DNA of 64,000 nt from assembly GCF_026151205.1 (NCBI RefSeq), contig NC_087075.1, forward strand, positions 124,001 to 188,000, given 5' to 3'. Positions 7,414 through 29,219 of the stretch are shown piece after piece. Numbering within the stretch: position 1 is the first letter of the stretch; each line of letters opens with the position of its first letter. The DNA is from Bolinopsis microptera (lineage: Eukaryota; Ctenophora; Tentaculata; Lobata; Bolinopsidae). The position numbers and the translations under genes are program-made. Under the pieces are notes generated by a model. That model worked only from the letters and a program-made list of their open reading frames with translations. It had not been told where the DNA came from and made no database searches.

Positions 7414-8540
7414 ACTATTATTAATTAATTTCTCAGATTATTAGTTCCCGAACAAGCGATGTTTTATAACGTGACTATAAATTTCAGCTAACCCAGTGCT
7501 GTACATGGTGGTTAATAGAGATTTCGTGGCATATCTCCGTATACTAGCAGCACGACGGAGGTGCAAGGACTCCCTCCCCCCGCCCAGACACAACACAGCT
7601 CACGTTGCAGTAGTGAGAACCTTTAGGAAGTGTAAAATGGAACGCCTTCGGAGAATCAAGGAAAACACTCATGGTTGTCATGGTAGTAGCCTGGCAATGA
7701 AGACTCCGTCTGTTATGTTCGAAGAAATGCGGTCACACGAAAATATTATCAGAGTAGTAGATACTGCTTTATAGGAGGCAATAAAAGGTAGACTGTAGTG
7801 TTGTTACACTACAGTCTACTAATGCTATTAGTTTTAATTAGTATAATTAGCATTTTAGTCTGAATTGAGTGTTTTAAACTAATTACAACACTACAAATCT
7901 ATTACATTTATTGAGCTATTTAAGAATTTATTTTGACATTTCGTCCCTGATAAAGGCGTGTAGCCGAAACGTCGACATTATTTTGTTTATTACACTGAGT
8001 GGAGACTCTCACTTCGTCCCCAACAATCAAATATGATCAAGTATCAACCCACTCACAAGAACGAAAAATATACATGTTTTCAGAATCCCCTGAAAAAGGA
8101 ACCTTTTTCATATTTCTACATTTTTATAGATTCAGCAAATGCAAGGTTTACAAGGTTTACAATAAAACAAACATATTAGCGTTTTTTAATGCAGGTTACA
8201 TTTTTAATAATATAAATCTCTTAAAATAAAATATAGAATTGCACATCAGTGGAAGGTTACAGTGATTTTTAGGATCGTAAAAATATATTTTCAAACATCG
8301 TAATTAAAATTACAAGAACAGTCAGTTTTTCATGCCGTATTAATATCTTTTTTGTTTGTTCCACAGTCCCAATGTTAGTGTTACTGTGGCAACCGCTCCG
8401 ATTTTACCATTTCAAGACTTCAAACTGAGAAATTAAGTTTTATTTAGCTGACAATACATGGTAACATTTAACATTTTGTAAGATCTACAATTTAAACGGT
8501 TTCGTTTTTAACTGTAAAATCATATCCACATCATCTTGTC
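7414..8540. other. Intergenic stretch with perfect hairpin
   Basis: No gene is recognised; open frames of 92 and 76 codons here resemble nothing known to me. A 14-bp-arm hairpin sits at 7788-7819 (GTAGACTGTAGTGT, loop TGTT). TTTATT at 8438-8443, read on the minus strand as AATAAA, could be the polyadenylation signal of the oxygenase gene upstream on that strand. Confidence 0.45.
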
Positions 8541-9675
8541 ACTCTTACCACAGTTTAGTAGTAGAAGAGCTCATAACCAAGTCACTCTTACCACAGTTTA
8601 GTAGTAGAAGAGCTCATAACCAAGTCACTCTTACCACAGTTTAGTAGTAGAAGAGCTCAATAGCACTCTTACCACAGTTTAGTAGTAGAAGAGCTCAATA
8701 GCACTCTTACCACAGTTTAGTAGTAGAAGAGCTCAATAGCACCACTCTTACCACAGTTTAGTAGTAGAAGAGCTCAATAGCACTCTTACCACAGTTTAGT
8801 AGTAGAAGAGCTCAATAGCACCACTCTTACCACAGTTTAGTAGTAGAAGAGCTCAATAGCACTCTTACCACAGTTTAGTAGTAGAAGAGCTCAATAGCAC
8901 CACTCTTACCACAGTTTAGTAGTAGAAGAGCTCATAACCAAGTCACTCTTACCACAGTTTAGTAGTAGAAGAGCTCATAACCAAGTCACTCTTACCACAG
9001 TTTAGTAGTAGAAGAGCTCAATAGCACTCTTACCACAGTTTAGTAGTAGAAGAGCTCAATAGCACTCTTACCACAGTTTAGTAGTAGAAGAGCTCAATAG
9101 CACCAAGTCACTCTTACCACAGTTTAGTAGTAGAAGAGCTCAATAGCACTCTTACCACAGTTTAGTAGTAGAAGAGCTCAATAGCACTCTTACCACAGTT
9201 TAGTAGTAGAAGAGTATAACCAAGTCACTCTTACCACAGTTTAGTAGTAGAAGAGCTCAATAGCACTCTTACCACAGTTTAGTAGTAGAAGAGCTCAATA
9301 GCACCAAGTCACTCTTACCACAGTTTAGTAGTAGAAGAGCTCAATAGCACTCTTACCACAGTTTAGTAGTAGAAGAGCTCAATAGCACTCTTACCACAGT
9401 TTAGTAGTAGAAGAGCTCAATAGCACCAAGTCACTCTTACCACAGTTTAGTAGTAAAAGAGCTCATAACCAAGTCACTCTTACCACAGTTTAGTAGTAGA
9501 AGAGCTCATAACCAAGTCACTCTTACCACAGTTTAGTAGTAGAAGAGTATAACCAAGTCACTCTTACCACAGTTTAGTAGTAGAAGAGCTCAATAGCACT
9601 CTTACCACAGTTTAGTAGTAGAAGAGCTCAATAGCACTCTTACCACAGTTTAGTAGTAGAAGAGCTCAATAGCAC
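8541..9675. repeat. About 28-copy minisatellite derived from the end of the oxygenase coding sequence
   Basis: Variable-length units (about 37-45 bp) share ACTCTTACCACAGTTTAGTA. Read on the minus strand, each unit carries GAG CTC TTC TAC TAC TAA, the codons Glu-Leu-Phe-Tyr-Tyr-stop. The rightmost unit is the functional one: it supplies the last residues and stop codon of the oxygenase gene. The rest of the array lies downstream in the presumed 3' UTR. Spacer variants are ATAACCAAGTC, AATAGC and AATAGCACC. Confidence 0.93.
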
Positions 9676-11661
9676 CAAGGTAGTCCTTGATCCACTCTCC
9701 GAAAACTTTGTATTTGAGCCCGGCTTGGGTGATAGCTCCACTCATACTACGGCTGATATCGGCATCAAATCTGAATATTTATTTACGAAATAGCGGCTAG
9801 TTGAACATTCAGTAGATTACAGGCAAGCAGTATATAACAATTAATTGGCTGTTTAAAGTTACTTTTTTAATTTAATTTCTTACTTCTTCAATACAAAAAC
9901 TGAATACACAAACTCACTGGGGTCCCAGGAAATAGGTGATAGAGTATCTATCAAAGTCAACTTCAGCAACTCTGTGTCTGACTGAGGGCACCTTGTTGTC
10001 GATGAGGTCATCTACCAGTTTTCCGATGTTGACGAGGAAAGCATTGTCTCCTGTCACGGGGGCGGGTCTGTACTGGTTCTTGTGTAGGATCTGACAATGA
10101 AACTTTCATCAAATAATATAGATTTATACAGCAATAAACGTATATAAAAACAATGGCGATAAAGAATGTTTTACGATTTACTTAATCGTAAAATTTTAAT
10201 ATTCTGAGATTGTTTATTTTGATCAGTAGAGGTTTATTTTACCTCAAGACCACCGTTGTTGAAGGTGGAGAGGACGGTGACGGTAGAGTCAATGTGTTCT
10301 AGCTCTCTCAGGAGAGTTCCGTCAAAGTCAGAGTACATGTTGCTGTTGATCCTTTGAGAAATGTATTATTTATAATTATAGGGACTGCCAAACACAAGGA
10401 TTTTGTAAAGGAATATCAAGTACCCATCATATATAGCTGAGGTAGAATGTTACTCACTGTCTTCGGATGGGGTATTTTCTGAGTCCCATAGCAGAGAACT
10501 CGTCCTCAGAAAAGAGAGCGGGCAGGTTGGGGTACTCCATAGATCGAGCAATGCTCCTGATGAAGGCTCGTCCAATGTTCCTTCTGATTTCAAATCCAGT
10601 CTGGAAGGTCTCCTTGAATCCTTTGTCGAAGGTGCAGTTTCCAGTCTCGGGCCACACGTTGGGTTCCTGGCAGTCGTATCTGAGTTTCTCGAGGATGTCG
10701 TCACTCTCGAAGCTTGCAGCTCGGGTCTCGTGGGGTCCAATGTTGTAGAGGTTCTTGTATTGGAGGGTATTCTCAACATCGTCAAGTCCGGGGCAGTATC
10801 CTGGATATTAGTAATTTTAGATCATTTTAATCATATGAGCTGCGTCTTACTAGGGGGTAAGTTCTACAAATGGATAGATAATTAGTTGCCACTATCAATT
10901 AATTAAGATAATTAGTTGCCACTATCAATTAATTAAGATAATTAGTTGCCACTATCAATTAATTAAGATAATTAGTTGCCACTATCAATTAATTAAAATA
11001 ATTAGTTGCCACTATCAATTAATTAAGATAATTAGTTGCCACTATCAATTAATTAAGATAATTAGTTGCCACTATCAATTAATTAAGATAATCAGTTGCC
11101 ACTATCAATTAATTAAGATAATTAGTTGCCAAAAGGCACCACTCACCTCAATGAAAAGAGCAAGGAAGTATAAAACAATAATTCCCCTGGAAGACTAAAG
11201 TAAGGTTACCTCTGTAAGCGTTCTTGTTGGCGGGGTTGTGTCTCCTGATAGCCAGCTCGTCCTTGACATCCTCATCCAGATCGTAGAATTGCTTCATGTA
11301 ATTCTGCTCGACAGAAGCGTCATAGTCGGCCACATCCACTACGTAGAAAAATCCGTATTCTTTCATTGATTCCAACAGTAGTTTGTCGATGGAAGCATCA
11401 TCGTTCAGAAGGGAGAGGTAGGGGATCTTTGCAATAGAATTAAAGCTGTCCAACTTGTCAGACAATTCAGGCCACAATCTGAATCATTCATTGTATTAAT
11501 TTATTATATTAATTTATTATATTATTATACATTAATTTAATGTATTATTATATATTAATTAATGGGCGGCAGAATAAAGAATACCTTGCCACCATCTCAG
11601 GAATAAAGGCTGCAGCGGGAGCAGCCAGTAATACCACAAGTAGACATAATGTTATCTTCAT
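9650..11661 (-). CDS. Secreted isopenicillin-N-synthase-like 2OG/Fe(II) oxygenase ending in FYY
   Basis: Six exons: 11585-11661, 11210-11478, 10458-10800, 10243-10351, 9918-10090, 9650-9770. All junctions are GT-AG with matching phase, giving 363 residues. Residues 1-19 form a signal peptide (MKITLCLLVVLL start), unusual for this family. An N-terminal DIOX_N-like part is followed by the double-stranded beta-helix domain with iron ligands His249, Asp251 (HID) and His305 (RHRV) and the RxS pair Arg314-Ser316. The 54-residue spacing from Asp251 to His305 and the 9-residue step to Arg equal those I recall for isopenicillin N synthase. The protein ends LFYY. From memory, FYY-ending oxygenases of this type occur in luminous ctenophores and were proposed to act in coelenterazine synthesis; the actual reaction is unproven. 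Intron 2 holds a 30-bp minisatellite. Confidence 0.9.
10877..11130. repeat. 30-bp minisatellite, about 8 copies, intronic
   Basis: The unit is GATAATTAGTTGCCACTATC plus AATTAATTAA and lies in intron 2 of the oxygenase gene. Copies are almost identical; one has AATCAGTT and one AAAATAATT. Confidence 0.95.
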
Positions 11662-18215: not shown

Positions 18216-21200
18216 TTAGAAAAAAGGTTTAACGTCTTCAAATACTACAGACATTTCGTCAAACTGTTGAAGATCTGCCATTCCTTGGTGAGAAACATTG
18301 GAGTAGCTTGAGGTAGACCACCTGAAATAAATAAGCTACAAATCGAAATAGTAACCATGGTATCAGTAATATTACAATACTTTGGCAATAATAACCACAG
18401 TTACCGTGACAATGGAAACAATAAACATGGTAGCCATGGTAACCATAGAAGTAGTAAGTAACATTGAAAACACCATGTAGCAAGTTATCTTTCACCTGAA
18501 TGGTGGTTGTTGTTCCCAAGTAGGTCCTCCAGCAATTCTCATCCCTAACTTCTTCATCAGACCTGTGGTTACATTCCTTATGCTTAATAGAAAAATTAAA
18601 TGTTGAAACGTTCCTTATGCTTAATAGAAAAATTAAATGTTGAAACGTTCCTTATGCTTAATAGAAAAATTAAATGTTGAAACGTTCCTTATGCTTAATA
18701 GAAAAATTAAATGTTGAAACGTTCCTTATGCTTAATAGAAAAATTAAATGTTGAAACGTTCCTTATGCTTAATAGAAAAATTAAATGTTGAAACGTTCCT
18801 TATGCTTAATAGAAAAATTAAATGTTGAAACGTTCCTTATGCTTAATAGAAAAATTAAATGTTGAAACGTTCCTTATGCTTAATAGAAAAATTAAATGTT
18901 GAAACGTTCCTTATGCTTAATAGAAAAATTAAATGTTGAAACGTTCCTTATGCTTAATAGAAAAATTAAATGTTGAAACGTTCCTTATGCTTAATAGAAA
19001 AATTAAATGTTGAAACGTTCCTTATGCTGAATAGAAAAATTAAATGTTGAAACGTTCCTTATGCTAATTAGATCCCTAATTAAAGTGCTCACTGTAGTTA
19101 GTTCCCTTGTAATCTATACCACCCGAGGGTTGACTACCAAATAAGGGCATAGGATAAGTTCCATTGACAGGATTTAGGTCACTCCGTGATGAGATAGCGT
19201 TTATGGCTGAGTAGGGGGGACTGCAGGCACATTTAGCAAGAGGATCGTGCTGATAGTCGTTATATCTCATCAACTTGTAAAGAGAGCCCATGTCGGTTAC
19301 TTTGTTTGCATCCCTCTTGAAGATGAGAGCTCGCGGGTTGTTGTCGTAGGAGAAAACGTCCCCGAACTTGTCAACAAACTGCTGAATACCGGACATGTTA
19401 AAGATAGTGGGATAGAAGGGTAGATTGTAACTGGGGAAGTATTGTTGTGTGGTCAGGAGATCTGTTTGGTCTTCATAGATAACAGTTCCAGGCAGCTGCT
19501 CCATAACATGTAGAGTACCTGGTTTGAGGTGATGTTAAATACTTAATAACCTGGTTACCTGGTTACCTGGTTACCCGGCTACCTGGTTACCCGGTTACCC
19601 GGTTACATGGTTACCTGGTTACATGGTTACCTGGTTACCCGGCTACCTGGTTACCCGGTTACCCGGTTACATGGTTACCTGGTTACATGGTTACCTGGTT
19701 ACCTGGTTACCCGGTTACCCAGTTACCCGGTTACCCGGTTACCCGGTTACCCGGTTACATGGTTACCTGGTTACATGGTTACCTGGTTACCCGGTTACCC
19801 GGTTACCCGGTAACCTGGTTACCCGGTTACCCGGTAACCTGGTTACCTGGGAACCTGGTTACATACTCTACAGTTGCCCCACAATATGTAGATTACCTGG
19901 TTTGAGGGGAGTGTTGGGGGTGAAGAGATTGTAGTCGACAATCATCCACTGATTGTTGTAAGTACCGCTGTTGAACCTCCTGAACACCTCGCACCACTCC
20001 CTCCCGGTCCGTGCTAATCTGTTAGCCACTACCCCTCTCATATACTCCGGTACACTTCCCTCCGGCTTGATATACTTCCACAGATCTGGGTTAAGGGTAG
20101 GTAGTGTAGTTTCCTGGGCCGCCAAACCACTGCTGATAAGAGTGAAGTCGTCTCCGCTGAAGACATACCCTGGGTAACTGGTGAACACTTGTTTCTTACC
20201 CGGCATCACACTCTGAGTCCCCGGTCCTGACCTGGTAATTTATAATTGGTAATTAATTATTAATTATGTCCAAGAACAGCCAATATCAGCCATGACACGG
20301 CAACAGAAAACATTAAAATTAAAATTAAAGTATTTTGAAAATTGTTTCAGGGTGATCATATTATGTACTGTATGATGTGTGTAGGTATGTATCTATATTA
20401 TCTTATTATGTACCTATAATTGAAATTGTAGCTTTTAACTACTCTGACCATGGCGGAGTAATCGTTCCAAGTAACATGTGACACCAGGAGGTCGTCAACT
20501 GTCCATTTCACTAGAGCAGTGCAATGTCCAGATCCTAGCACCCTCTCTGGGAGACACGTCATTACACACTAATTACTAACTAAAGTTAGTAGTTCTACTA
20601 ACTTATTACACACTACAAAGTTAAATGTAGTTTTTATGAGGAAGTCGGGTACAGCAAAGCTGAGTACGCTTATATGGTATGGTATTGGTATGAGGTTGAA
20701 AACAAATATGCTTCTATTGCTGCCTGGTACATTATCAGTGATAATGTACCAGGCAGCAGATAATGTTTTAGTGATAATATTATCCGACATGTTAGAGTCA
20801 AACAAATTTGTTTGGTTGTTCCTGACCCTATAGAGCAACTAATAAGATATGATCTCTAATCATTTGAACAATTAATGGTAATTTGTCACAGTAAGTGTGG
20901 TAAAAGTGTCTCACCTAACATCCGTTCTTTTTCTCGGGTAATCTTCCCTACTGGGGTACCCAGTCCATAGACATCTCTGTGATATCCGATCTCATCCGTC
21001 CCTGGAAGGAAATAAAGTGTTAAACCTTTTTAATAACACTCATGTCTCCTTGTAACCTGTCTCCATGTAACCTGTCTCCATGTCACCTGTCTCCATGTCA
21101 CCTGTCTCCATGTCACCTGTCTCCATGTCACCTGTCTCCATGTCAAATATCTCCATGTCACCTGTCTCCATGTCACATGTCTCCATGTCACCTGTCTCCA

Positions 21201-24158
21201 TGTCAAATGTCTCCATGTCACCTGTCTCCATGTCACATGTCTCCATGTCACCTGTCTCCATGTCACCTGTCTCCATGTCATCTGTCTCCATGTCACATGT
21301 CTCCATGTCACATGTCTCCATGTTACCTGTCTCCATGTCACATGTCTCCATGTCTCCAGACATCTCTGTGATATCCGATCTCATCCGTCCCTGGAAGGTA
21401 ATAAAGTGTTAAACCTTTTTAATAACACTCATGTCTCTTTGTAACCTGTCTCCATGTAACCTGTCTCCATGTCACCTGTCTCCATGTCACCTGTCTCCAT
21501 GTCACCTGTCTCCATGTCAAATATCTCCATGTCACCTGTCTCCATGTCACATGTCTCCATGTCACCTGTCTCCATGTCACATGTCTCCATGTCACCTGTC
21601 TCCATGTCACATGTCTCCATGTCACCTGTCTCCATGTCACCTGTCTCCATGTCATCTGTCTCCATGTCACATGTCTCCATGTCACATGTCTCCATGTTAC
21701 CTGTCTCCATGTCACCTGTTTCCATGTCACATGTCTCCATGTCACCTGTCTCCATGTCACCTGTCTCCATGTCACCTGTATATAAGCACATGTCACATGT
21801 CTCATAGTCCGTCTCCCACCTTACCTAGTGCATCCTCCATATCTATGAGGTCGAGGCTGAAGTTAAGCAGATAAAAATCGGAGAGCGTGAGAATACCGGG
21901 GTGGACCATGTTGAACCCCTCGTACATTCCCTCTATTTGTAAGAGCAGCAGATTAACATGATGCCTGCATTGAGATCCCTCGGTTTAAGATTAAACTAAC
22001 TACTATAAACTACTACTACTCCTCCGAAAACGTTTCTCTGCCAAGAAGGAATATATAGACCATGTTAACAACATAGAATAAAAGGAAACTGCACTGAATG
22101 CCTGTAAAATCTCATTTACCAATAAGGGGACACGTCTTTATTCTTCTGAATCATTATTCTCATCCATTTTTGGTTTGAATCCATGTACGTTTTGAGTTTA
22201 TCACAATAATCAGACGACTTTTCTGGACGGCAGTATCTGAAAATCAAAACATTAATGACAAGACAATTATTTACAGAAATAGTGTTTCCTTCTTCATCTG
22301 GATGCCATGATCTAGTAACCTGGTACCCTGGTACCCTGGTACCCTGGTAACCTGGTAACCTGGTAACCTGGTAACCTGGTAACCTGGTAACCTGGTAACC
22401 TGGTAACCTGGTAACCTGGTAACCTGGTAACCTGGTAACCTGGTAACCTGGTAACCTGGTAACCTGGTAACCTGGTAACCTGGTAACCTGGTAACCTAGT
22501 AACATGGTAACCTGGTAACCTGGTAACCTGGTAACCTGGTAACTGGGTAACATGGTAACCTAGTAACATCGTAACCTAGTAACATCGTAACCTAGTAACA
22601 TGGTAACCTAGTAACCTAGTAGCCTAGTAGCCTAGTAACCTGGTAACCTGGTAATCTAGTAACCTAGTAACCAGGTAACCTAGTAACATAGTAACCTAGT
22701 AACCTGGTAACCTGGTAACCTAGTAACCTAGTAACTTTGGAACCTGGTAACCTGGTAACCTGATAATCTGGTAACCCGGTAACCTGGAAACCTGTTAACC
22801 TGTTAACCTGGTAACCTGGTTACCTGGTTACCTGGTTACCTGGTTACCTGGTTACCTGGTTACCTGGTTACCTGGTTACCTGGTAACATGGTAACCTGGT
22901 TACCTGGTAACCTGGTAACCTGGTAACATGGTAACCTAGTAACATGGTAACCTAGTAACCTAGTAGCCTAGTAGCCTAGTAACCTGGTAACCTGGTAATC
23001 TAGTAACCTAGTTACCTGGTAACCTAGTAACATAGTAACCTAGTAACCTGGTAACCTGGTAACCTGGTAACCTAGTAACCTAGTAACTTTGGAACCTGGT
23101 AACCTGATAATCTGGTAACCCGGTAACCTGTTAACCTGTTAACCTGTTAACCTGGTAACCTGGTAAACTGGTTACCTGGTTACCTGGTTACCTGGTTACC
23201 TGGTTACCTGGTTACCTGGTAACCTGGTTACCTGGTTACCTGGTTACCTGGTTACCTGGTTACCTGGTTACCTGGTTACCTGGTTACCTGGTTACCTGGT
23301 TACCTGGTTACCTGGTTACCTGGTTACCTGGTTACCTGGTTACCTGGTTACCTGGTTACCTGGTTACCTGGTTACCTGGTTACCTGGTTACCTGGTTACC
23401 TGGTTACCTGGTTACCTGGTTACCTGGTTACCTGGTTACCTGGTTACCTGGTTACCTGGTTACCTGGTTACCTGGTTACCTGGTTACCTGGTTACCTGGT
23501 TACCTGGTTACCTGGTTACCTGGTTACCTGGTTACCTGGTTACCTGGTTACCTGGTTACCTGGTTACCTGGTTACCTGGTTACCTGGTTACCTGGTTACC
23601 TGGTTACCTGGTTACCTGGTTACCTGGTTACCTGGTTACCTGGTTACCTGGTTACCTGGTTACCTGGTTACCTAGTGACACCTAGTAACTAACCCCGACA
23701 TAGTATTTGTCCACATTTGTAGTATACGAGTGGCAGTAGCATATCCCTCTCCGATCCCTGCTGCCCTAGCCTGTTCTTCATCGCTCACAGAGGAGTTTGT
23801 AGTGATTGTTAGGAACGCCCAGCCTGTCCTAGGTGCATTTAGTTTTACTTTTATTATCATTAAAACGAGAACACCCTTAATTCAACTTTCTTAAATATAC
23901 TTTCTTGAATAGGTTTAAGGTTAAGATTCATTGAATAAAATGAAAGTACGTTACAAAACGAATTCTATAATTTTACTTTTCCATCAAGTCTTTGAAGTCC
24001 ACCCGAGCAGCAGCCGGTGCAGCCTGTTGCTTAGTTACCGCCCCACTGCTAGTCACATAAAACACTTTTCTTACTGGACTGCTGATTGGTTTGGTGGAGA
24101 TGGGTAACAGTAGTAAAGTCAGTACTACAAGTTTCCAAATGTGGTCCTGCTGTTCCAT
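18216..24158 (-). CDS. Phospholipase B-like lysosomal hydrolase (PLBD family), complete
   Basis: Ten exons: 23977-24158, 23694-23828, 22120-22236, 21825-21964, 20915-21001, 20414-20546, 19897-20231, 19093-19518, 18496-18562, 18216-18321. Phases agree throughout, giving 575 residues, the usual size for PLBD1/2. Landmarks are an N-terminal hydrophobic signal (LVVLTLLLLPIS, residues 10-21); GWAFLTI and EGYATATRI; YWHHVNLLLLQIEGMYEGF; GHCTALVKW with the probable autoproteolytic nucleophile Cys229; HVTWNDYSAM; TSYPGYVFSGDDF; NNQWMIVDY; DPLAKCACSPPYSAINAISSR; GPTWEQQPPFRW. The family acts in lysosomes as an N-terminal-nucleophile amidase/lipid hydrolase; the true substrate is uncertain. The exon 2 acceptor (CTAG-G) has a weak pyrimidine tract and is the least certain junction. 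AATAAA on this strand at 17968-17973 may end the transcript. Confidence 0.93.
18573..19066. repeat. 37-bp minisatellite, about 13 copies, intron 8 of PLBD gene
   Basis: The unit is CGTTCCTTATGCTTAATAGA plus AAAATTAAATGTTGAAA. Copies are nearly invariant; one has GCTGAATAG. The array fills almost all of the intron, ending 26 bp before the donor of exon 8 (minus strand). Confidence 0.96.
19549..19862. repeat. 8-bp GGTTACCT/GGTTACCC array, intron 7 of PLBD gene
   Basis: About 39 copies of an 8-bp unit alternate between GGTTACCT and GGTTACCC with occasional GGCTACCT, ACATGGTT and GGTAACCT. Open frames across it are by-products of the repeat. The same core fills intron 2 of this gene. Confidence 0.95.
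20718..20758. repeat. Perfect 41-bp palindrome in PLBD intron 5
   Basis: Two 20-bp arms, TGCTGCCTGGTACATTATCA and its exact reverse complement, are separated by a single G. It could extrude as a cruciform or form a stable RNA hairpin in the intron. Function is unknown. Confidence 0.9.
21042..21355. repeat. 15-bp minisatellite block 1, PLBD intron 4
   Basis: About 21 copies of CTGTCTCCATGTCAC with third-position-like variants. The period is a multiple of three, so both strands show long spurious ORFs (for example METGD repeats). Confidence 0.95.
21352..21425 (-). pseudogene. Partial duplicate of PLBD exon 5 with its 3' splice site
   Basis: GACATCTCTGTGATATCCGA and following bases to TCCGTCCCTGG, plus the flanking intron (AATAAAGTGTTAAACC), repeat the sequence at 20971-21046. 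Read on the minus strand this is the acceptor and about the first 32 bases of exon 5. It runs into the repeat with no 5' donor, so it should be skipped or act as a decoy acceptor. Confidence 0.8.
21431..21783. repeat. 15-bp minisatellite block 2, PLBD intron 4
   Basis: About 23 copies of the same 15-bp unit as block 1, in nearly the same order of variants. Blocks 1 and 2 with the exon 5 fragment between them form a ~390-bp segmental duplication. Confidence 0.95.
22312..23672. repeat. 8-bp GGTAACCT then GGTTACCT array, PLBD intron 2
   Basis: About 170 copies of an 8-bp unit. The left part is mostly GGTAACCT with TAGTAACC variants and an internal ~360-bp duplicated block (about 22560-22790 and 22930-23150). 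From about 22810, and solidly from 23170, the unit becomes GGTTACCT, nearly pure for some 480 bp. The array abuts exon 2 with only a short gap. Confidence 0.95.
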
Positions 24159-26277: not shown

Positions 26278-28535
26278 ACAGGGGGCACTAACTAACTACA
26301 CGTCCTCCTTACCTAACTAACTAACTACACGTCCTCCTTACCTAGCGCACAGGAGGCACTAACTAACTACACGTCCTCCTTACCTAGCGCACAGGAGGCA
26401 CTAACTAACTACACGTCCTCCTTACCTAGCGCACAGGAGGCACTAACTAACTACACGTCCTCCTTACCTAGCGCACAGGAGGCACTAACTAACTACACGT
26501 CCTCCTTACCTAGCGCACAGGAGGCACTAACTAACTACACGTCCTCCTTACCTAGCGCACAGGAGGCACTAACTAACTACACGTCCTCCTTACCTAGCGC
26601 ACAGGGGGCAATGACTAACTACACGTCCTCCTTACCTAGCGCACAGGAGGCACTAACTAACTACACGTCCTCCTTACCTAGCGCACAGGAGGCACTAACT
26701 AACTACACGTCCTCCTTACCTAGCGCACAGGAGGCACTAACTAACTACACGTCCTCCTTACTTAGCGCACAGGGGGCACTAACTAACTACACGTCCTCCT
26801 TACCTAGCGCACAGGAGGCACTAACTAACTACACGTCCTCCTTACCTAGCGCACAGGAGGCACTAACTAACTACACGTCCTCCTTACCTAGCGCACAGGG
26901 GGCACTAACTAACTACACGTCCTCCTTACCTAGCGCACAGGAGGCACTAACTAACTACACGTCCTCCTTACCTAGCGCACAGGAGGCACTAACTAACTAC
27001 ACGTCCTCCTTACTTAGCGCACAGGAGGCACTAACTAACTACACGTCCTCCTTACCTAGCGCACAGGAGGCACTAACTAACTACACGTCCTCCTTACCTA
27101 GCGCACAGGAGGCACTAACTAACTACACGTCCTCCTTACCTAGCGCACAGGAGGCACTAACTAACTACACGTCCTCCTTACCTAGCGCACAGGAGGCACT
27201 AACTAACTACACGTCCTCCTTACCTAGCGCACAGGAGGCACTAACTAACTACACGTCCTCCTTACCTAGCGCACAGGAGGCACTAACTAACTACACGTCC
27301 TCCTTACCTAGCGCACAGGAGGCACTAACTAACTACACGTCCTCCTTACCTAGCGCACAGGAGGCACTAACTAACTACACGTCCTACTTACCTAGCGCAC
27401 AGGAGGCACTAACTAACTACACGTCCTCCTTACCTAGCGCACAGGAGGCACTAACTAACTACACGTCCTCCTTACCTAGCGCACAGGGGGCAATGACTAA
27501 CTACACGTCCTCCTTACCTAGCGCACAGGAGGCACTAACTAACTACACGTCCTCCTTACCTAGCGCACAGGAGGCACTAACTAACTACACGTCCTCCTTA
27601 CCTAGCGCACAGGAGGCACTAACTAACTACACGTCCTCCTTACCTAGCGCACAGGAGGCACTAACTAACTACACGTCCTCCTTACCTAGCGCACAGGAGG
27701 CACTAACTAACTACACGTCCTCCTTACCTAGCGCACAGGAGGCACTAACTAACTACACGTCCTCCTTACCTAGCGCACAGGAGGCACTAACTAACTACAC
27801 GTCCTCCTTACCTAGCGCACAGGAGGCACTAACTAACTACACGTCCTCCTTACCTAGCGCACAGGAGGCACTAACTAACTACACGTCCTCCTTACCTAGC
27901 GCACAGGAGGCACTAACTAACTACACGTCCTCCTTACCTAGCGCACAGGAGGCACTAACTAACTACACGTCCTCCTTACCTAGCGCACAGGGGGCACTAA
28001 CTAACTACACGTCCTCCTTACCTAGCGCACAGGAGGCACTAACTAACTACACGTCCTACTTACCTAGCGCACAGGAGGCACTAACTAACTACACGTCCTC
28101 CTTACCTAGCGCACAGGAGGCACTAACTAACTACACGTCCTCCTTACCTAGCGCACAGGGGGCAATGACTAACTACACGTCCTCCTTACCTAGCGCACAG
28201 GAGGCACTAACTAACTACACGTCCTCCTTACCTAGCGCACAGGAGGCACTAACTAACTACACGTCCTCCTTACCTAGCGCACAGGAGGCACTAACTAACT
28301 ACACGTCCTCCTTACCTAGCGCACAGGAGGCACTAACTAACTACACGTCCTCCTTACCTAGCGCACAGGAGGCACTAACTAACTACACGTCCTCCTTACC
28401 TAGCGCACAGGAGGCACTAACTAACTACACGTCCTCCTTACCTAGCGCACAGGGGGCACTAACTAACTACACGTCCTCCTTACCTAGCGCACAGGAGGCA
28501 CTAACTAACTACACGTCCTCCTTACCTAGAGCACA
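26278..28535. repeat. 42-bp minisatellite, about 53 copies, spurious 687-codon ORF
   Basis: The unit encodes TNYTSSLPSAQEAL when read forward from 26611, and the open frame reaches 28674. The recurrent variants I can see change the amino acid (P to L, E to G, S to Y, L to M) and none is silent. That is the opposite of purifying selection, so I treat the ORF as an artefact of a 42-bp period. Units also hold GGAGG/CCTCC inverted pairs. A block of 16 units (672 bp) is duplicated. Confidence 0.93.
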
Positions 28536-28860
28536 GGGACTGGTGTGTGGTGTGCCAAGTAAGCGTCCTCCCAGCCTCACTGTCAGCAGATCTCTTTGGA
28601 TAAGATATACGACAAATATAAAATATACGATAATATACGATACGGATAAACAAAGTTTTACAAGCAACAAATAAAGGATATAATTATCACATGACTCACT
28701 AGTCATTACAAATAAAGTTACCTTATCTCCGTTTCTTAAAATAGGTCTGATAAGAAAATGAACCAGTAAGTAATCAAATCTAGCTGCCTGAAACCCGTGG
28801 AGATTTGATTACCATATCTAGACCAGTCGATTTTCGCGGCTCACGGCTGTTCAACTACTA
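28536..28860. other. Spacer without recognised genes
   Basis: AT-rich sequence after the 42-bp array. AATCAAATCTAGCTGCCTG and CCGTGGAGATTTGATTACC form a weak inverted pair. No gene is seen. Confidence 0.4.
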
Positions 28861-28951: not shown

Positions 28952-29018
28952 CTATTGTCATATTACCTGGCACGCCAATTCCAATGGTAAACTTAAAGAC
29001 TAATTACTAAAATATATA

Positions 29019-29216
29019 GGGTTAGGGTTAGGGTTAGGGTTAGGGTTAGGGTTAGGGTTAGGGTTAGGGTTAGGGTTAGGGTTAGGGTTAGGGTTAGGGT
29101 TAGGGTTGGGGTTAGGGTTAGGGTTAGGGTTAGGGTTAGGGTTAGGGTTAGGGTTAGGGTTAGGGTTAGGGTTAGGGTTAGGGTTAGGGTTAGGGTTAGG
29201 GTTAGGGTTAGGGTTA
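29019..29216 (+). repeat. Interstitial telomere-type (TTAGGG)n array, about 33 copies
   Basis: Nearly pure TTAGGG with one TTGGGG variant near 29107. It runs in the orientation expected at a right-hand chromosome end, yet 35 kb of sequence follow. Short TTAGGG clusters recur near 30907-30985. Confidence 0.97.
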
Positions 29217-29219
29217 GCC

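Follow-up and report, generated by a model that had tools for sequence, protein, structure and literature searches.

A minisatellite copying the coding end, stop codon and a donor-like sequence of an FYY oxygenase gene in the ctenophore Bolinopsis microptera

FYY proteins come from luminous ctenophores, and the main text of Francis et al. (2015, PMC4488382) proposes a role for them in the synthesis of coelenterazine, for which they are candidates only. Here, we analysed a stretch of 64,000 bp from the genome of Bolinopsis microptera, hereafter the window, covering kilobases 124-188 of scaffold C4. The window has an FYY gene, and a minisatellite of 28 tandem units is located directly 3' of its last coding exon. 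The features of the locus, in window coordinates, are the following.

9650..11661, minus strand: FYY-type 2OG-Fe(II) oxygenase (IPNS-like) gene with six coding exons and 363 amino acids (aa), from the spliced open reading frame, Pfam and motifs
11661-11585, 11478-11210, 10800-10458, 10351-10243, 10090-9918 and 9770-9650, minus strand: the coding exons of this gene
9650..9679, minus strand: C-terminal codons CTT GGT GCT ATT GAG CTC TTC TAC TAC TAA (LGAIELFYY-stop), the coding part of unit 1
8541..9672, minus strand: minisatellite of 28 units with FYY codons, stop and GTAAGA, from Tandem Repeats Finder (TRF) and a count of units
9638..9643, minus strand: GTAAGA, candidate 5' splice site of an intron in the 3' untranslated region (3'UTR), 6 nt after the stop, unit 1 copy; 6.7 bits in a position weight matrix (PWM)
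8512..8519, minus strand: TTTTACAG, weak candidate 3' splice site directly after the array, PWM 3.2 bits
8439..8444, minus strand: AATAAA, first polyadenylation-type signal downstream of the array, read from the sequence
10876..11131, minus strand: another minisatellite, with 30-bp units, in coding intron 2 of the FYY gene

The spliced coding sequence of the FYY gene has 1092 nt and a single stop codon, and all five introns have GT/AG borders. Pfam assigns the protein to 2OG-FeII_Oxy (PF03171, 9.1e-10) and DIOX_N (PF14226, 1.6e-07). The iron-binding motif RELEHID and the segment RYS are present and fit the RELEHXD and RXS of FYY proteins, and the C-terminal GAIELFYY-stop matches the end described for these proteins in the main text of PMC4488382. 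The N-terminus starts with MKITLCLLVVLLAAPAAA, which by eye appears hydrophobic. The protein ends in DYLGAIELFYY, inside unit 1 of the array, so that unit 1 is the true end of the gene, as the preliminary description of this locus had it. When compared with the known ctenophore FYY genes, the window gene belongs to the same enzyme family, with the same GAIELFYY end and RELEHXD motif, and is a divergent member of it.

The minisatellite occupies positions 8541-9672 on the minus strand, and TRF calls it at 8538-9672 with 28.0 copies. Counting the core CTT[C/T]TACTACTAAACTGTGGTAAGA on the minus strand, from 9662 down to 8549, also gives 28 units, which agrees with the approximate number given earlier. 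Their spacing is mixed, with values of 38, 41, 43 and 46 bp; with units of 38-46 bp in 28 copies, the array is a minisatellite, or variable number tandem repeat. Each unit is composed of the last codons (GAIELFYY or a part of it), the stop TAA, the segment ACTGTG and the 5' splice-site-like GTAAGAGTG. The FYY codons followed by TAA are encoded by all 28 units, and GTAAGA, which resembles a 5' splice site, is present in every one. The 18-mer GAGCTCTTCTACTACTAA is exact in 25 of the 28 units. The other three comprise two with ATACTC replacing GAGCTC and one with TTTTAC, the copy already described as having TTT for TTC, which still encodes Phe.

Exact matches to the 18-mer number 39 in the 264.65-Mb assembly: 25 belong to the window array, and the other 14 come from an inverted duplication elsewhere on C4, seven per arm. 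With up to three mismatches allowed, a 23-nt core gave 52 matches, of which 42 fall in these three arrays and 10 are scattered single sites; a reversed control pattern gave 11 matches, which places the scattered sites at chance level. A dispersed repeat family was therefore rejected, there being only three arrays plus such single sites. The large inverted duplication is found at ~658-682 kb of C4 (L044, L009, L010, L045), with arms ~99% identical to each other and homologous to positions 1 to ~11 kb of the window, where the matching flanks are ~94-99% identical. Each arm has a partial FYY copy consisting of exons 3-6 only (C4, 668-671 kb) followed by 7 units; the duplication could be real or an effect of the assembly.

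The genome was also searched with the protein, and the 57 matches were sorted exon by exon. Seven other FYY genes were found, six in tandem on scaffold C6 (C6a to C6f, 20.510-20.524 Mb) and one on C4 (C4b, 15.868 Mb), besides the two partial copies; weaker non-FYY relatives are located on C12 and on C6 (13.9 Mb). The main text of PMC4488382 likewise reports near-identical FYY copies and a tandem pair in Mnemiopsis. The window protein is identical to its paralogues at 301-302 of 363 aligned columns, for the six of the seven genes that were modelled in full (C6f was left out). In C6a, exon 2 contains an in-frame TGA. GAIELFYY-TAA closes each of the seven other FYY genes, and none of the seven has the array when the 18-mer and the 23-nt core are searched genome-wide. 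The idea that the array is common to the gene family was thus rejected, its array form being confined to the window gene and the two partial copies. Because seven other FYY genes have the same terminal codons without an array, these codons are, judged from this distribution, older than the array. Together with the end of the coding sequence in unit 1, the shared terminal codons of the seven array-free paralogues bear out the earlier proposal of an expansion that started from the stop-codon region.

The last 16 codons of exon 6 are nearly the same in the paralogues. Between the window gene and C6c, two of them differ, both silently, and 15 of the 24 other codons of the exon differ; between the window gene and C4b, three differ, and 14 of the other 24. 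At fourfold sites, identity to C6c is 33/39, 15/16 and 19/22 in exons 3-5, and only 12/27 in exons 1-2. Either gene conversion between paralogues or strong constraint would explain the near-identical end and exons 3-5. At fourfold sites, exons 3-5 are close to the C6 paralogues and exons 1-2 and the beginning of exon 6 are not, a patchy pattern that suggests gene conversion. Two further observations concern the FYY loci. An 11-bp array of 27 copies, ACTTTTGAGTT (L043, 2228-2524), lies downstream of the FYY gene at C4:15.87 Mb, and its sequence is unlike that of the window array. The FYY loci found are within ~0.7 Mb of scaffold ends (C4:134 kb; C4:668-671 kb; C4:15.868 of 16.326 Mb; C6:20.51-20.52 of 20.93 Mb), a post hoc observation on copies that are related.

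In all eight FYY genes, the stop codon is followed by GTAAGA. The order is TAA-ACA-GTAAGA in the seven other genes, with a spacing of 3 nt, and TAA-ACTGTG-GTAAGA in the window gene, with a spacing of 6 nt. A donor PWM was made from the 10 distinct coding donors of the FYY family (39 donors in all), which themselves score 6.4-10.0; GTAAGA scores 8.4 bits in the seven other genes and 6.7 bits in the window gene. As a control, 2886 TAA triplets outside arrays in the window were scanned for donors within 10 nt: the donor score of the window gene is equalled or exceeded at 52 (1.8%), and that of the other FYY genes at 16 (0.55%). The sequence past GTAAGA is unalike among three groups of genes (the window gene; C6a and C4b; C6b-f), and the codons that precede it are nearly identical. 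GTAAG is missing immediately downstream of the stop in the non-FYY relative on C12. Furthermore, the reverse primer for Mnemiopsis FYY given in the main text of PMC4488382 reverse-complements to C-TAA-ACA-GTATGTTTTTTCTTCTGTTTCTCC. It implies a donor-like GTATGT 3 nt after the stop, with a score of 6.1 bits that is slightly below the coding donors, and no second FYY unit is seen within the 31 nt that this primer covers. Given GTAAGA after the stop in eight FYY genes and GTATGT in Mnemiopsis, FYY genes probably have a 3'UTR intron that starts immediately past the stop codon. The words 'intron' and 'UTR' do not occur in the main text of PMC4488382, and no array is described in the parts consulted.

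The copies of the array preserve traces of its origin. Both arms of the inverted duplication keep ACTTGGTTATGACAAG past the last unit, which exposes a CTTGGT junction: the last unit in the partial copies runs into GTGACTTGGTTATGACAAG, and the 46-bp units read GTGACTTGGTGCTATTGAG, so that a downstream CTTGGT is joined to the coding CTTGGT of the Leu-Gly codons. Since CTTGGT stands on both sides of the junction, the simplest founding event, and a likely one, is a duplication at this 6-bp microhomology. Later joins at TGA and GTG would account for the 43-bp units (GGTTATGAGCTC) and the 38-bp units (AGAGTGCTATT). With 28 units in the window and 7 and 7 in the two inverted copies, the array length, on these counts, changes quickly.

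Based on these comparisons, we propose, with a probability of about 0.65, that the array is a minisatellite derived from a tandem duplication over the border between the last coding exon and a 3'UTR intron. A short segment with sequence from both sides of this border would have been duplicated in tandem, with CTTGGT joined to CTTGGT, and slippage at short homologies would afterwards have given the 38-, 41- and 43-bp units. Splicing from the first GTAAGA (9643) to an acceptor past the array, perhaps at 8512, would remove most or all of the array. The protein would be the same whichever unit serves as donor, because translation stops in unit 1. Most likely, then, the array is a neutral minisatellite within the 3'UTR intron that is spliced out and leaves the protein unaltered.

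A tentative alternative, clearly less probable than the 3'UTR intron, is a plain 3'UTR minisatellite, in which the array is kept in the mature mRNA, no intron exists and GTAAGA is coincidental or otherwise employed. The AATAAA signal lies downstream of the array and none occurs inside a unit, as a plain 3'UTR would have it, and the acceptor candidates speak for it as well. With an acceptor PWM made from 16 distinct coding acceptors (own scores 4.5-15.4), the two best acceptors of the window reach 3.3 bits, for a later, competing AG, and 3.2 bits, for TTTTACAG, below every coding acceptor. Several other points weigh against the intron. The TTTTACAG site reads TTTTAGAG in the inverted, partial copy that was read on L010, where it scores -0.5. 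The donor PWM comprises 10 sites from one gene family, with the window donor near the low end of its range and the Mnemiopsis sequence below it, and the seven other FYY genes are closely related and represent about two lineages. A plain 3'UTR would also be expected to diverge after GTAAGA, and C6a and C6b-e, whose coding introns are alike at the 5' ends, have wholly different 3' regions, a difference that could reflect a recombination break. When the 3' regions of the three FYY groups were aligned to find a shared acceptor, no convincing homology was found past GTAAGA. In the other FYY genes, an acceptor picked by eye reads CTAG, TTTAG or TTTTAG and lies ~86-95 nt past the donor where listed; it is the top-scoring site in C6a, C6b and C6d, comes second in C6c and third in C4b, and falls outside the four best in C6e and C6f. 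What argues against the plain 3'UTR is that GTAAGA is kept in 8/8 FYY genes while the sequence past it diverges, and that the Mnemiopsis primer points to GTATGT in the corresponding position. Since each unit duplicates this conserved 5' splice-site-like sequence, the array is more likely to lie in a 3'UTR intron than in a plain 3'UTR. The earlier account of the array as a 3'UTR expansion seeded at the stop codon thus stands as to the seeding and is the less probable one as to the plain 3'UTR.

It is improbable that the array is functional, that is, that the FYY gene is regulated through competition among 28 donors or through alternative acceptors in frame. The donors lie at 6 nt after the stop in unit 1, 44 nt in unit 2 and 82-1101 nt in the rest, so that use of a donor from unit 3 on would put the junction at least 82 nt past the stop and destabilise the mRNA where junction-dependent decay exists. 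Such decay follows a rule of ~50-55 nt past the stop, whose applicability to ctenophores is uncertain; use of a distal donor could make the mRNA its target. On the acceptor side, sites of the type AAGAG/TGCTATT could join exon 5 to an end in HAIELFYY. There are 18 in-frame AG positions in the array that, if joined to exon 5, finish in FYY, namely HAIELFYY (13), HGAIELFYY (3) and HDLVILFYY (2). They are located ~11 nt past TACTAAAC, which we take to resemble a branch site, and have no pyrimidine tract; their use is unlikely. The suggestion in the preliminary description that alternative acceptors could supply LFYY ends is thus formally possible and doubtful in practice. Bypass of the stop, its other suggested route to FYY, fails, and read-through of the unit 1 stop to a later FYY was rejected: because 38 is not a multiple of 3, read-through leaves the frame and ends in SSTTKLW-stop without FYY. 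Moreover, the array is absent from the seven other FYY genes found and its length is unstable, which means that the family does not need it. The same low probability applies to a more specific form, in which 28 equal donors would act as a bank of splice sites that chooses between a near-stop, stable junction and a far one leading to decay, with the acceptors giving a shortened enzyme ending in FYY; if it were true, array length would tune FYY output between animals.

It is less probable still that the copy number, or the array itself, was made by long-read assembly. According to the assembly description in PMC10232365, wtdbg was used to assemble the Bolinopsis microptera genome and short reads to polish it, so the copy number may be inexact. 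However, the array recurs with its own unit order in two other copies, and its units vary in length type and at single bases.

Systems with related properties have been described. In the fission yeast genes SPOG_01682 / SOCG_00815, as presented in the relevant part of PMC3629103, a segment with a splice-site-like sequence is tandemly duplicated in a gene and the intron consists of repeats; in the FYY case, however, the donor-like sequence also exists in relatives without an array. Intron gain by tandem duplication (the Rogers model) likewise has a duplication adjoining a splice signal, but it calls for a duplicated exonic AGGT to give both splice sites. The FYY units have no AGGT, and the array did not create the donor, GTAAGA being present in seven array-free FYY genes. 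Minisatellite expansion in human segmental duplications changes exons, introns or UTRs in recently copied genes, but the passages of PMC2812944 that deal with it contain no case of one unit with codons, stop and donor. The C. elegans minisatellite CeRep25B is tied to alternatively spliced regions; in the account of it in PMC4039745, it is over-represented near such regions and is not a copy of a host exon end. No comparable case was found in titles and abstract openings on ctenophore minisatellites and on minisatellites with splice sites. The FYY locus shows clearly a minisatellite that arose over the end of a coding sequence, its stop codon and a sequence resembling a splice donor, and the same genome still has relatives that lack the array. 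The 3'UTR intron predicted just past the FYY codons of these coelenterazine-synthesis candidates bears on transcript annotation and on their testing.

The window is rich in minisatellites. It has 21 arrays that cover 13,848 of 64,000 bp (21.6%), and a comparison sample of ten 5-kb stretches on ten scaffolds, chosen by the analyst, has 6 arrays covering 1,083 of 50,000 bp (2.2%). Introns that hold minisatellites in the window are FYY intron 2 and introns of a phospholipase-B-like gene (Pfam PF04916, 4.1e-104), whose alignment with a solved phospholipase B-like 2 spans the intron junction; these cases suit a place of the FYY array in an intron. With arrays in both of these genes, the FYY array is one of several at gene borders in this region. 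Whether minisatellite units are in general linked to splice motifs was evaluated with the 27 arrays of the window and the comparison sample, using 500 shuffles and six motifs. Units with the motif, followed in brackets by the shuffles of 500 at least as high, numbered 6 (35) for GTAAG, 3 (19) for GGTAAG, 9 (2) for GGTAA, 1 (217) for AGGTRAG, 5 (11) for AGGTRA and 4 (78) for CAGGT. These mixed results, from six motifs, mostly one window and some related arrays, are not taken as support.

In the phospholipase-B-like gene, the intron 19896-19519, on the minus strand, has near copies of CTCAAACCAG/GTA.TCTACAT on both sides and is filled by an array of 8-bp units of the AACCAGGT type; its sequence fits a candidate intron gain by tandem duplication. 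The same gene has a 15-bp array (METGD-type) at 21043-21779, minus strand, in two blocks, each followed by TTCCAGGGACGGATGAGATCGG. A 42-bp array of ~53 copies at 26316-28537 lies mostly in a plus-strand open frame of 687 aa (26611-28674) and repeats TNYTSSLPSAQEAL. An interstitial telomere-type array at 29017-29217 consists of 33.5 copies of TAGGGT (TTAGGG).
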